From the NCBI GenBank assembly GCA_947496065.1, contig CANMBF010000005.1, positions 1 through 64,000 of the forward strand: 64,000 bases of DNA. The letters are read 5' to 3'. The DNA is from Bacteroidota bacterium. GTDB taxonomy: Bacteria; Bacteroidota; Bacteroidia; NS11-12g; UBA955. This document shows positions 54,349 to 59,865 of this stretch, piece after piece. Each line of letters opens with the position of its first letter. Position 1 is the first letter of the stretch. The notes under the pieces were generated by a model. The model was not told the origin of the DNA. It did not search any database and saw nothing but the letters and a program-made list of their open reading frames with translations. The position numbers were made by a program, and so were the translations under genes.

Positions 54349-54834
54349 ATGAAATATAAAATCCTACTCACAACACTCCTATTTACTTGCCTTTTTGCTA
54401 AGGCGCAAACAAAAATTCACCAAGGTGATGGCACCTATTCCTCAAACAAAGTGCTCTTTACCATCGATGGTGTTAAAGTAAGAGAAGGCAATGGTACATA
54501 TTCTTCAAATAAAGTGCTTTACACTTTTGATGGCACCAAATTCAGACAAGGCGATGGTACCTATTCCTCCAATACAGTGCTTTTAACAATTGATGGTGTA
54601 AAAATTCGACAAGGCGATGGCACCTACTCCTCCAATAAAGTGCTCTACACCATTGATGGCAATAAGATTAGACAAGGCGATGGCACCTATTCCTCTAATA
54701 AAGTATTGTACACCATTGATGGCAATAAAATTCGAGAAGGCGATGGCACCTACTCTTCAAATAAAGTACTCTATACCATTGATGGCAGTCTGTCCATCAC
54801 AAAAATCGCCTGCTTGCTCTTTTATATTCTTTAA
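54349..54834 (+). CDS. Secreted protein of six 21-residue tandem repeats
   Basis: 161 aa. Signal peptide ILLTTLLFTCLFAKAQ. From residue 24 six repeats follow with consensus RQGDGTYSSNKVLYTIDGNKI (residues 24-149, bases 54418-54795). A short hydrophobic tail then ends the protein (LSITKIACLLFYIL). Repeats 4 and 5 are identical in protein but differ at several third positions, so they are old enough to have drifted yet are held by selection. The composition resembles small repeat proteins of Bacteroidota sometimes called 5-fold beta-flower; I cannot confirm that. Location is exported; function unknown. Confidence 0.75.
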   Translation: MKYKILLTTLLFTCLFAKAQTKIHQGDGTYSSNKVLFTIDGVKVREGNGTYSSNKVLYTFDGTKFRQGDGTYSSNTVLLTIDGVKIRQGDGTYSSNKVLYTIDGNKIRQGDGTYSSNKVLYTIDGNKIREGDGTYSSNKVLYTIDGSLSITKIACLLFYIL

Positions 54835-55025: not shown

Positions 55026-57458
55026 ATGAAATCAATTTTTACACTTGTATTGGCCTTGTTCGCGCTTTCAAGTTATGCGCAGCTAGATGGCACTCATATT
55101 CATTATTTGGCAGATCCTGAAGGGGCCGAACGTCCACACAGCATCGACATTACCCACATGAAATTAGAAGTTTCATTTGTGCCTACCGAAGGCAAAGTCA
55201 TAGGCCGAGTAACCCATGAATTTACAACCATTCAAAATGGCATCGACACTTTGTTTTTCGACGGACCTGGCATTAATATATTGGCCGCTCAACTCGACAA
55301 CCAAGACTTAAGTTTTTATACCAATGCAGAAGGTGTAGTGGTAAAATTCAAAAAGAAAATGAATTGGGACGAGAAACACAGCATCACCTTTAGCTATAAT
55401 GCAACCCCTAAAAGAGGTATTTATTTTATCGGCTGGAATGAGCCTGAAAACTATGGCACAGCTGATATTACGTATATCCGTAAACAAATATGGACCCAAG
55501 GTCAAGGTACCGATAACCGCTACTGGATACCCATGTACGATTGTTTAAATGACAAATTTATTACCGAGACTGTTGTTACCATTGACACCAAATACAAAGT
55601 ATTGTCGAACGGAAAACGTTTGAACGTTGAACAAAATACCAATGGTACCACGACTTGGCACTATACCATGGAGAAACCACATGCAGGTTACTTATTGATG
55701 TTGGGCATTGGCAATTATAATATTAAAGAGAGTAGAACAAAACGCGGTACATTGGTTCAATTTTGGTATTATCCAGAATTTAAAGATCGTGTTGAACTTA
55801 CAAGCTTGCACACCGAACGCATGATTGAATTGTTGGAAGAAACCACTGGCACGCCATACGCTTGGGGCAGTACGTATGCGCAAATTATGGTTCAGAACTT
55901 CCTCTATGGCGCAATGGAAAATACCGGCGCTACCGTCTTTGGCGATTTTTTTACAGTAGATGCTAGAGCCTTTAAAGACAGAAATTACATGGGTGTGAAT
56001 TGCCATGAATTAACCCACCAATGGTTTGGTGATTTGGTAACTGCCAGAGGCACTGCCGACCACTGGCTGCAAGAAAGTTTTGCCACCTTTTTTCCTAAAT
56101 TATTTTTTAAAGAATTGGATGGCTATGATGCCTACCAATGGTCGTTAAGAGGCGAATACAATGCCGCCTTGGCGCAAAGTGAAATTGACAATTATCCAGT
56201 AAGACATACAAGAGCTGGCAGCAGCAGACACTATCCAAAAGGAAGCGCTGTTTTGAGCATGTTGCATTACCAATTAGGCGATGATAATTTTACCCGTTTT
56301 ATTCAACATTATTTAGCGGTGAACGGCTATAAAAATGTAGAGACTTGGGATTTTCAAAAAGCTTTGAAAGACAAATTGGGTATGAACTACGATTGGTTTT
56401 TTGATGAGTGGATTCACCGCGGTGGCGAGCCTCATTACAAGGTTAATTACAGATCAGAAAAATATGCCACCTACTTTAGTGTGCAACAAACACATAAAAC
56501 CGATGGCCATATTCGCTATTTTAAAATGCCAATGGTATTTGCCTTGTATTTTAAGAATGGCAATGTTTATAGAGACACCATCATGGTGATGGATTCGGCT
56601 TCACAAGTGATTCGCATACCAAATAAAAATGGTGAAGAAATTGCTTTTGCGCTCATTGATGAAGAAAGCAGAGTGATGAAAAAAATGGATTTCAAAAAAG
56701 AGAAGGAAGAATTAATGGCCCAAGCAGCGAATGCCAAATTCATGATCGATCGCTACGATGCCATTGTCGGATTAAGTACCACCCCCCTAGCTGAAAAAAC
56801 AGCCTTTTTACAGGCCCGTTATGCAGCCGAAAAACACTTTGGGATTCGCGCAGAGATTGCGAAACAATTGGCCAACCAAAAATCATTGAACAAATGGTAT
56901 GGTAGCAATATCGTAAAAGACCGCGCAGAAGTTAAGAATGCCTTTATGGCGGCCGACACAATTGTGACAGAACAACAATCCCTTTTTGCTTTGTTGTTGC
57001 AAGATAGCAGCTATGCAGTGGTTGAAAATGCTTTAGATAAGTTAATGAAGTGTAAAGACATTGCTGATAAAGAAAAACAAAAATACTTGGCCACTATCAG
57101 TAATGTGTATGGCTTAAACAACAATGTGCGTACTAAATATTTAGAATATTGCTTGCTATATAATACGAACATCGATGCGAAAGCTGAGTTAACTAAACTT
57201 TGCGGTCCAACTTACGAATTCAGAACAAGAGTAAATGCGGCCAATGCATTGAAAAGACAAAAGGTCTGCGATGAAGCGATTGTAAGAAATTTAATCAAAG
57301 CTGCACTGACATACAATGGAAGACTCTCTGGCCCATGTGGCGATGTGTTAAAAGCATTCAAAAAGGATGCAACCTTTAATGCCATGATTCAAAAATATAT
57401 TAGTAGCTTAACTTCTGAAGAGCAAGAGCGTTTGAAAAAGGCTGAGATCAAAGACTAA
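55026..57458 (+). CDS. M1 family aminopeptidase, exported
   Basis: 810 aa with a signal peptide (FTLVLALFALSSYAQ). The N-terminal beta domain (about 40-230) is followed by the exopeptidase motif GAMENTGATVFGD (295-307) and the zinc site HELTHQWFGDLVTA with HELTH 327-331 and E350 (HExxH-x18-E). FDEWIHRGGEP marks the end of the catalytic domain, and a helical C-terminal domain follows. It removes N-terminal residues from peptides in the periplasm or outside. Possibly supplied by the nearby M13 peptidase. Single gene with -7 box and terminator. Confidence 0.95.
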   Translation: MKSIFTLVLALFALSSYAQLDGTHIHYLADPEGAERPHSIDITHMKLEVSFVPTEGKVIGRVTHEFTTIQNGIDTLFFDGPGINILAAQLDNQDLSFYTNAEGVVVKFKKKMNWDEKHSITFSYNATPKRGIYFIGWNEPENYGTADITYIRKQIWTQGQGTDNRYWIPMYDCLNDKFITETVVTIDTKYKVLSNGKRLNVEQNTNGTTTWHYTMEKPHAGYLLMLGIGNYNIKESRTKRGTLVQFWYYPEFKDRVELTSLHTERMIELLEETTGTPYAWGSTYAQIMVQNFLYGAMENTGATVFGDFFTVDARAFKDRNYMGVNCHELTHQWFGDLVTARGTADHWLQESFATFFPKLFFKELDGYDAYQWSLRGEYNAALAQSEIDNYPVRHTRAGSSRHYPKGSAVLSMLHYQLGDDNFTRFIQHYLAVNGYKNVETWDFQKALKDKLGMNYDWFFDEWIHRGGEPHYKVNYRSEKYATYFSVQQTHKTDGHIRYFKMPMVFALYFKNGNVYRDTIMVMDSASQVIRIPNKNGEEIAFALIDEESRVMKKMDFKKEKEELMAQAANAKFMIDRYDAIVGLSTTPLAEKTAFLQARYAAEKHFGIRAEIAKQLANQKSLNKWYGSNIVKDRAEVKNAFMAADTIVTEQQSLFALLLQDSSYAVVENALDKLMKCKDIADKEKQKYLATISNVYGLNNNVRTKYLEYCLLYNTNIDAKAELTKLCGPTYEFRTRVNAANALKRQKVCDEAIVRNLIKAALTYNGRLSGPCGDVLKAFKKDATFNAMIQKYISSLTSEEQERLKKAEIKD

Positions 57459-57480
57459 ATTCAATACTTAAGTGGATATT

Positions 57481-57510
57481 AAAAAAGGGGGTTTTTCAAC
57501 CCCTTTTTTA
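57481..57510 (+). terminator. Terminator of the M1 aminopeptidase gene
   Basis: AAAAAAGGGG pairs with CCCCTTTTTT around a short loop with one bulged G, ending in a T run, 22 nt after the stop. Confidence 0.85.
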
Positions 57511-57537
57511 AAACATGATAGGAATCAAGTAAATAAA

Positions 57538-57565
57538 TTTAGAAATTATTTAGAAATATTCTAAA
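57538..57565 (+). promoter_or_regulatory. Candidate metal-responsive operator of feoAB
   Basis: A perfect inverted repeat TTTAGAA-ATA-TTCTAAA (57549-57565) lies 16 nt before the feoA ATG. A third half-site TTTAGAA (57538-57544) is 11 bp upstream, one helical turn. The TTAG..CTAA form is that of DtxR/MntR-type sites. A weak -7 element (CTAAATTG, 57561-57568) overlaps the right arm, so binding would block transcription. The regulator is inferred, not visible here. Confidence 0.6.
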
Positions 57566-57581
57566 TTGCGGCCCTATTTCA

Positions 57582-57803
57582 ATGACAGCAGCCGATTTAA
57601 AAAAAGGAGAGCGCGCAATTATCACAGAAGTGATATACTGCGATTTGCAATGCAAGTTGCTTGAAATGGGCTGTTATTGTGGCAAGGACATTGAAATGTT
57701 ATACAAAGCGCCTTTTGGCGATCCCATTGCATTTGACATTGACGGGTACACTTTAGGATTGAGAAAAGAAGAGGCCCTTAAATTGATTGTTGAACTTAAA
57801 TAA
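57582..57803 (+). CDS. feoA: Ferrous iron transport protein A
   Basis: 73 aa SH3-like domain: MTAADLKKGERAIITEV, LLEMGCYCGKDIEMLYKAPFGDPIAFDIDG and YTLGLRKEEALKLI. FeoA is a small cytoplasmic partner that supports FeoB. First gene of a two-gene operon; feoB begins right after its stop. Confidence 0.93.
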   Translation: MTAADLKKGERAIITEVIYCDLQCKLLEMGCYCGKDIEMLYKAPFGDPIAFDIDGYTLGLRKEEALKLIVELK

Positions 57804-57804
57804 T

Positions 57805-59865
57805 TTGGACGAACTACCCCTTCATATTGTTTTAGTAGGCAATCCGAACACTGGCAAAACCACATTATTTAATACACTTACTGGGCAAAATCAAAAAGTT
57901 AGCAACCTGCCTGGTACCACTATCGAAGAGAAAAAAGGTTTCTTTGATTACGATGGTGTACATGTTAATATCACCGATTTGCCTGGTACCTACAGTTTGT
58001 ATCCGAATGGTGAAGACGAGCAAATAACAACGCAATTTTTACTTCAGCATTCAGACAATAAAATAGATGCGATTGTATTTGTAGCCGATGCGAGCAACCT
58101 CGAGCGAAATTTATTGTTGTATACGCAAATAGCCGATCTTGGCGTTCCTACCATTATTGCACTCAACATGCTCGATGTATTAGAACAAAAACATATTGCC
58201 ATCGATCTTGGAAAATTATCAGTTGAATTACAAGCTCTAATTTCACCAATCAACGCGCGCAATGGCAATGGCATTAAGCAATTAAAAAATACCATCCTCA
58301 AAACAAAGCTGGCTGTACAACGCAATTTTTTTAGTCCCACGGAGGAGCAAAAAAAGCTAATTGCTTTGCAAACAACTGAAGAAACCGACTATACGCGATG
58401 GCATATTATTTTCAATCAGTTTAAATACAATAAAATTGAAGGAGAAGCCCGCCAACAGTTTGAAGCTATTGTACCTTTCAGTGATAAAATAATTGCAGAG
58501 GAAACCTCTAAAAGGTTCTCCATCATTCATCCCATCGTTGAAAAAGTAACCCTTAAAAATACTGCCAAAGAAAAAACATTGACCCAAAAAATCGATGCAA
58601 TTCTACTTCATCCAGTATGGGGCTTTCTTATTTTTTTTACGACCCTATTCTTAATTTTTCAATCCATTTTCCGATTGGCAGAAATTCCAAAAGGTTGGAT
58701 TGAAGACCTGTTTTCGTGGGTAACTGTAATACTAAAAAACAACTTAACAGATAATACCTTCAGTCAGTTGTTGTGCGATGGCATACTGCCGGGTTTAGCT
58801 GGTGTAATGGTGTTTTTACCGCAAATCATTATTCTGTTTTTTATATTGGCCTTGTTAGAGGATAGTGGTTATATGACCAGGGTGAGTTTTATTACCGACC
58901 GTTTAATGCGCAAATTTGGCTTGAATGGTAAATCTGTTATTCCATTAATTGGTAGCATGGCCTGCGCCATCCCATCGATTATGGCCACCCGCAATATTGA
59001 AAATAAAAAAGACCGTCTCATCACAATACTAGTGACTCCATTAATGAGTTGTTCTGCCCGCTTACCTGTTTATACTTTATTAGCCGGCCTATTATTCATC
59101 GAACAAAACAATGCCATTATTGATTTGAGAGGCCTTCTGATTTTAGGCATGTACATTATTGGATTTGTGGTGGCCTTATTATTTGCCTTTCTTTTCAAAC
59201 TCATTTTAAAACAAAAACAACGCAGTTTTTTTGTACTTGAATTGCCTGATTACAGGTTGCCAAAATGGAAAAACATCTCCATTACTTTAAAATTAAAAAT
59301 CAAAGATTTTGTATTTAATGCTGGTAAAATTATTTTAATAGTGAGTGTCATTTTATGGTTTTTAGCGAGCCACGGACCCGCAAAAAAATTCGAGGCCATT
59401 AATCAAAAATACACCAACTATACTTTGGCAGACCGTGCGTTAAAAATCCAATCAGAGCGTTTAGAAGCAAGTTATGCAGGTAGCCTTGGCAAGACCATAG
59501 AACCCGCCATTAAACCGCTCGGATACGATTGGAAAATAGGCATTGCATTGATTACAAGTTTTGCGGCTCGCGAGGTATTTGTAGGGACTGTTGCTACCAT
59601 TTACTCAGTGGGCAATGCCGATGACGAATCGGCCATTACAGCTACACTCTCTAAACAAACCAATGGCGAAACTGGCGAAAAAACCTATACCATCGCAGTG
59701 GTATTATCGCTCTTAATGTTTTATGCTTTTGCCATGCAATGCATCAGCACCATGGCGGTTACTTATAGAGAAACCAAGTCTATTAAATGGCCCATCATAC
59801 AATTCTTATACATGAGTGGATTTGCTTATTTGTTAAGCTTTATTGTGTACCAACTTTTTAAATAG
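57805..59865 (+). CDS. feoB: Ferrous iron transport protein B
   Basis: 686 aa. The start is TTG at 57805, directly after the feoA stop; it gives MDELPLHIVLVGNPNTGKT. A TTG at 57787 inside feoA is possible, but no ATG is available. N-terminal G domain: G1 GNPNTGKTTLFNTLTG, G3 DLPGTYSL, G4 NMLD. A transporter domain follows with two gate regions: VMVFLPQIIILFFILALLEDSGYM with GLNGKSVIPLIGSMACAIP, and SFAAREVFVGTVATIYSV. It imports Fe2+ across the inner membrane. Short C-terminus ending in a TM segment. Confidence 0.95.
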   Translation: MDELPLHIVLVGNPNTGKTTLFNTLTGQNQKVSNLPGTTIEEKKGFFDYDGVHVNITDLPGTYSLYPNGEDEQITTQFLLQHSDNKIDAIVFVADASNLERNLLLYTQIADLGVPTIIALNMLDVLEQKHIAIDLGKLSVELQALISPINARNGNGIKQLKNTILKTKLAVQRNFFSPTEEQKKLIALQTTEETDYTRWHIIFNQFKYNKIEGEARQQFEAIVPFSDKIIAEETSKRFSIIHPIVEKVTLKNTAKEKTLTQKIDAILLHPVWGFLIFFTTLFLIFQSIFRLAEIPKGWIEDLFSWVTVILKNNLTDNTFSQLLCDGILPGLAGVMVFLPQIIILFFILALLEDSGYMTRVSFITDRLMRKFGLNGKSVIPLIGSMACAIPSIMATRNIENKKDRLITILVTPLMSCSARLPVYTLLAGLLFIEQNNAIIDLRGLLILGMYIIGFVVALLFAFLFKLILKQKQRSFFVLELPDYRLPKWKNISITLKLKIKDFVFNAGKIILIVSVILWFLASHGPAKKFEAINQKYTNYTLADRALKIQSERLEASYAGSLGKTIEPAIKPLGYDWKIGIALITSFAAREVFVGTVATIYSVGNADDESAITATLSKQTNGETGEKTYTIAVVLSLLMFYAFAMQCISTMAVTYRETKSIKWPIIQFLYMSGFAYLLSFIVYQLFK

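Follow-up and report, generated by a model that had tools for sequence, protein, structure and literature searches.

Which regulator controls the iron-uptake operon feoAB in this Bacteroidota genome, and through which site? The question was raised by a sequence-only reading of the window (the whole stretch of 64,000 nucleotides analysed here), which described a three-half-site inverted repeat over the feoAB promoter, expected feo to be iron-regulated, and favoured a DtxR/MntR-type repressor over Fur. We compared the region before feoA across the genomes of the family, searched for the regulator genes, and assign the predicted operator to Fur rather than DtxR.

The palindrome before feoA and its conservation

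The feoA gene (57582-57803, plus strand, ATG at 57582) encodes a protein of 73 aa that matches PF04023 FeoA with 59.2 bits (cut-off 23). On the same strand feoB spans 57805-59865, starting with TTG at 57805 or 57787, and its product matches TIGR00437 feoB with 505.8 bits (cut-off 315.65; frame checked). Direct reading of the sequence places a TTTAGAA half-site at 57549-57555 and its inverted form TTCTAAA at 57559-57565, the left and right arms of a palindrome, and another TTTAGAA at 57538-57544, all three where the sequence-only reading had located them. The palindrome had been taken as 7-3-7; the repeat is real, but a 9-1-9 palindrome with a 7-1-7 core describes it better. Comparison of feoA upstream regions gave a conserved unit of 19 bp, the 9-1-9 palindrome ATTTAGAATnATTCTAAAT. 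The window carries it as the candidate Fur box ATTTAGAAATATTCTAAAT (57548-57566, unstranded, core at 57550-57564), which agrees with the conserved unit at 17 of the 18 fixed positions and, in its core TTAGAAA-T-ATTCTAA, at 13 of the 14 core positions. A 7-1-7 core is the layout of Fur-family boxes.

The window has a single copy of the exact 17-mer TTTAGAAnnnTTCTAAA, and the 2.9-Mb genome has no other. The window as a whole contains 18 perfect 7-3-7 palindromes of any sequence, against 8.4 ± 2.7 in 40 shuffles; when the 123-bp intergenic region was shuffled 5000 times, such a palindrome arose in 274 of the shuffles. With up to three mismatches, the pattern of the sequence-only reading has 27 sites in the window (14.8 expected); a scan of the whole genome, with up to two mismatches, returned 79 sites and the reversed control 84, so the pattern is not enriched there. 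As 7-base palindromes are not rare in this AT-rich window, the case for the site rests on the comparison between genomes: a function is argued from its conservation, not from the improbability of the palindrome. Perfect inverted repeats of 7 bases were also counted over the whole window; for loop lengths of 3, 5, 6 and 7 they reach about 1.7-2.4 times their frequency in shuffles.

FeoA was found in 65 of the 70 family genomes. The upstream set consisted of up to 170 bp before feoA at 66 non-redundant places, namely 63 family genomes, one second copy and two outside loci. L001, L004, L036-L039 and L042, which were duplicates or other than feoA, were left out of the counts, as was L050 with just 32 bases, and the feoA match of G063, at a contig start, lies outside the set. 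With one to three mismatches, ATTTAGAATnATTCTAAAT precedes feoA in 50 of the 63 family genomes. Counted by region, 52 of the 66 carry it (36 with one, 12 with two and 4 with three mismatches), always 12-28 bp before the feoA start, and each of these 52 matches was equalled by at most 0.5% of 200 shuffles. The consensus was derived from the same upstream regions, so the counts measure conservation and cannot serve as an independent prediction. All 16 genomes of the window's genus with a readable feoA upstream have ATTTAGAAATATTCTAAAT or a close variant, and ATTTAAAATCATTCTAAAT is the form of the box in genera g6, g13 and most of g14. The box is absent from 14 of the 66 regions (seven in g11, three in g10, one each in g5, g7 and g12, and the second feoA of G013); 13 of the 63 genomes with feoA have no box, though Fur is present in the good genomes of the family. 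The DNA just upstream of the box differs even among the nearest five genomes. It is this conservation in sequence and place across the upstream regions that defines the site as a 9-1-9 palindrome with a 7-1-7 core.

Fur and its rivals

The window's genome, a MAG that is 96.6% complete, has a single Fur-family gene (PF01475, 95.4 bits, cut-off 23.1), located next to a gene that, judged by eye, encodes adenylosuccinate synthetase. The protein is 170 aa long and has the HDH motif. No match to PF01325 was found in this genome, with a control that was positive in 13 of 14 genomes, Bacteroides included. PF02742 gave no match in it either, with a control positive in 11 of 14 genomes; Bacteroides was not among these, so the PF01325 search carries the weight. 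Given the 96.6% completeness, the lack of a dtxR or mntR gene falls short of certainty. Among the 42 good family genomes, PF01475 is present in all and PF01325 in 18.

The closest published counterpart is in Riemerella anatipestifer, with ATTTAGAATTATTCTAAAT as its predicted 19-bp Fur box and with fragments of four promoters shifted by purified Fur (PMC5609570). The window site is identical to this box at 18 of 19 positions, the comparison being with the published predicted box and not with the letters of the R. anatipestifer feoAB region. The abstract of the same paper prints a different, E. coli-like box, its Table 5 does not include feoAB, and its discussion, where it deals with iron starvation, lists feoA and feoB as genes 'induced by iron' (PMC5609570). 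A full-text literature search for the 19-mer returned PMC5609570 alone. In R. anatipestifer, feoA and feoB were up about 5-fold with a chelator and 4-5-fold in a fur mutant, the feoAB promoter region contained a predicted Fur box, and feoAB also rose under Mn, Zn and Cu stress (PMC10434265). The two systems are alike in the 19-bp palindrome within the feoAB promoter region, and the genome studied here has one Fur-family regulator. They differ in that binding and derepression were measured in R. anatipestifer and are predicted for the present site, and in that the window locus has an extra half-site and a second dyad upstream of the box.

Classical Fur/PerR boxes of Bacillus subtilis, TGATAATnATTATCA and TTATAATnATTATAA, are 7-1-7 boxes. 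The window site shares this layout and the AAT-n-ATT centre, but has G/C at the fourth core position and ATTTAG/CTAAAT as outer bases. Its TTAG and CTAA ends are superficially like those of DtxR boxes, which is a point for a DtxR/MntR-type regulator, yet the DtxR/IdeR box, TTAGGTTAGCCTAACCTAA, has other spacing and a richer G+C centre (compared by eye with the consensus). The site does not resemble the E. coli-type Fur box, which may be why the sequence-only reading leaned to DtxR.

A DtxR/MntR-type repressor that binds the TTAG..CTAA pattern would also be in keeping with the MntR of Porphyromonas gingivalis (PMC4222909) and with the PF01325 proteins of 26 of the 70 family genomes, one of them the near relative G009, which has the same site. 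We nevertheless rejected this assignment and consider it highly unlikely, since no such regulator was detected in the window's genome, 18 of the 31 good genomes with the box show no PF01325 match (hand tally), and the site is nearly identical to the published Fur box. The single Fur-family protein might instead be a PerR-like peroxide sensor or work with manganese, so that feoAB would answer oxidative stress or manganese rather than iron alone. Its best PDB match is indeed PerR (2fe3, 5.5e-17), just ahead of Fur entries, and it reaches no NCBIfam equivalog cut-off, so the score does not settle Fur against PerR. However, its KVLEF segment aligns with KIVDF of PerR 2fe3, and Glu in place of the Asp of PerR is Fur-like; this residue favours Fur. 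The dependence of R. anatipestifer feoAB on iron and fur also speaks against a PerR or manganese role, even though other metals raise feoAB there (PMC10434265), and we regard such a role as improbable. As for a chance palindrome in AT-rich DNA, the 18 perfect palindromes of the window speak for it, but a box held in place and sequence before feoA in most of the family, next to DNA that varies among the nearest five genomes, leaves it hardly any probability.

We therefore name Fur, the ferric uptake regulator, as the very probable owner of the predicted operator at 57548-57566. An iron-responsive operator over the feoAB promoter, the part of the earlier proposal that stands, is well supported by the comparison of sequences; its DtxR/MntR part is unsupported. 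The site is best explained as a feoAB Fur box, a known kind in a new instance. For this organism we infer the binding of Fur, its metal and the repression. With enough Fe(II), a Fur dimer would bind the palindrome, cover the promoter spacer and run into the -7 element, which would deny RNA polymerase access to the feoAB promoter; under iron shortage, Fur would be released and feoAB transcribed.

Third half-site, promoter and second dyad

The third half-site, TTTAGAA at 57538-57544 on the plus strand, lies 11 bp upstream of the left arm of the box, about where a -33 element would be. Of the 16 genus genomes in which we read the region before feoA, it is kept in the five nearest (the window's included, and G006 with one changed base) and is missing from the remaining 11. 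The three-half-site repeat of the sequence-only reading is thus present in full, but its third member is conserved only locally. Read in a shifted 7-1-7 register, the third half-site reaches 9 of the 14 core positions and 4.5 bits, which is weak for another complete Fur site, a reading that we rejected. The whole triple repeat could also be one operator for two cooperating dimers, with an essential third half-site. The 11-bp repetition of TTTAGAA and its retention in the five nearest genomes fit this arrangement, whereas the weak score and the genus genomes that have the box without the third half-site argue against it, and we think it unlikely.

At all 27 places in g6, g13 and g14, the right arm of the box runs into a TAnnTTTG, and a TTG is found 19-20 bp before this element; among the g9 promoters, TAnnTTTG is present in 3/3 and TTG in 2/3. 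These are the -33/-7 elements of the Bacteroidota promoter consensus, so that in the sister genera the box occupies the spacer of what is a textbook promoter for Bacteroidota. Neither element was found in any of the 16 genomes of the window's genus (g1) or in the single g4 genome. As the sequence-only reading had noted, the site sits over a weak -7 element, TAAATTGC (57562-57569, plus strand), which overlaps the right arm, and in the window's genus the box appears to fill the spacer of a decayed promoter. A sigma-70 scan of 57300-57700 gave two weak matches against 1.4 expected. Further upstream, after the M1 peptidase gene, is a terminator-like hairpin, GGGG-TTTTTCAA-CCCC (57488-57503, unstranded; a scan gives a 6-pair stem on the minus strand), which is kept in G013 and G017 and lost in G006 and G009. 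The window also contains, at 54349-54834, a 161-aa open reading frame made of repeats of about 20 residues (GDGTYSSNKVLYTIDGxKIR).

A second dyad, ATGATAGGAATCAA (57515-57528, unstranded), lies upstream of the box; the nearest genomes differ in its centre but share its arms. By sequence alone it is not unusual, as ATGATnnnnATCAT with one mismatch has 4 sites in the window against 5.5 expected. The corresponding pattern TGnYnnnnRTCA resembles a Crp/Fnr site. Among representatives of g1, g4 and g9, the genera covered by this test, the pattern, which was picked post hoc, is present in 11 of 16 at up to 60 bp before the box, against a mean of 0.21 and a maximum of 3 in 500 shuffles; by genus these are 9/13 in g1, 0/1 in g4 and 2/2 in g9. 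A looser form gave 11 (shuffle mean 0.92, maximum 6), and the strict TGA-N6-TCA gave 5 of 16 (shuffle mean 0.2, maximum 2). Depending on the lineage, the dyad is 7, 19 or 29-30 bp from the box, i.e., shifted by about one helical turn. Three Crp-HTH proteins are encoded in the genome, none of which has an FNR-like cysteine cluster by eye. A tentative proposal, which we hold to be possible though on balance doubtful, is that feoAB of this genus has two inputs: Fur would repress, a Crp/Fnr-type activator at 57515-57528 would be needed because the -33/-7 elements have decayed, and the third TTTAGAA, where the -33 element used to be, would act as a helper half-site specific to the lineage. That the second dyad activates feoAB is a guess. 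The dyad and the lost promoter consensus in the same genus offer a testable example of a promoter that turns over while its iron-uptake operon is conserved.

Possible further sites in the genus

We searched the 17 genus genomes for the core TTAGAATnATTCTAA with up to one mismatch and found 78 sites, against 28 for a reversed, equally palindromic control. In the window's genome alone there were 4 sites and 2 control sites, and no excess over the control was seen in G009 (5 and 5) or G019 (7 and 7). A full-length nfu locus was available from 16 of the 17 genomes, and the core precedes nfu in 12 of these 16; the four without it include three of the window's nearest relatives. Among the loci read, the core also precedes TonB receptor genes (L141/L182, Pfam; L176 and L188, by eye), cytochrome c genes (L151, Pfam; L184, by eye) and COX2 (L138, Pfam). 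The sites of L183, L185, L187 and L189 fall inside genes and look like chance.

The sites were also turned into a sequence model (A1, R1), with the window site in the training set. The model ranked this training site first in its own genome (E 0.0058), and its next matches lie before genes for aconitase (E 0.076), for a multihaem cytochrome c (E 0.29) and for nfu (E 0.70). These remaining sites, at E 0.076 or worse, are mixed with intragenic ones, so none stands alone. Together the sites may sketch an iron regulon, which shows more clearly across the genus than within a single genome. One putative Fur-box word appears to hold across much of a Bacteroidota family, in agreement with the box studied in Riemerella, and could serve to trace iron regulons in genomes of this sort.

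Some individual sites are recorded here. The Fur-box-like site of the aconitase gene is 38 bp before it (L121 1501-1523; G000:C1:194408-194430), and a perfect TTAGAATTATTCTAA lies 4 bp before the start of the Nfu-type Fe-S scaffold gene (L191 1501-1515; G000:C18:46728-46742). In two genus genomes, a perfect 23-bp TTATTTAGAATAATTCTAAATAA is located before a gene for a LuxR-type regulator (L139 1501-1523, by eye; L143 1501-1523, Pfam), and a weaker box precedes the same gene in L140.
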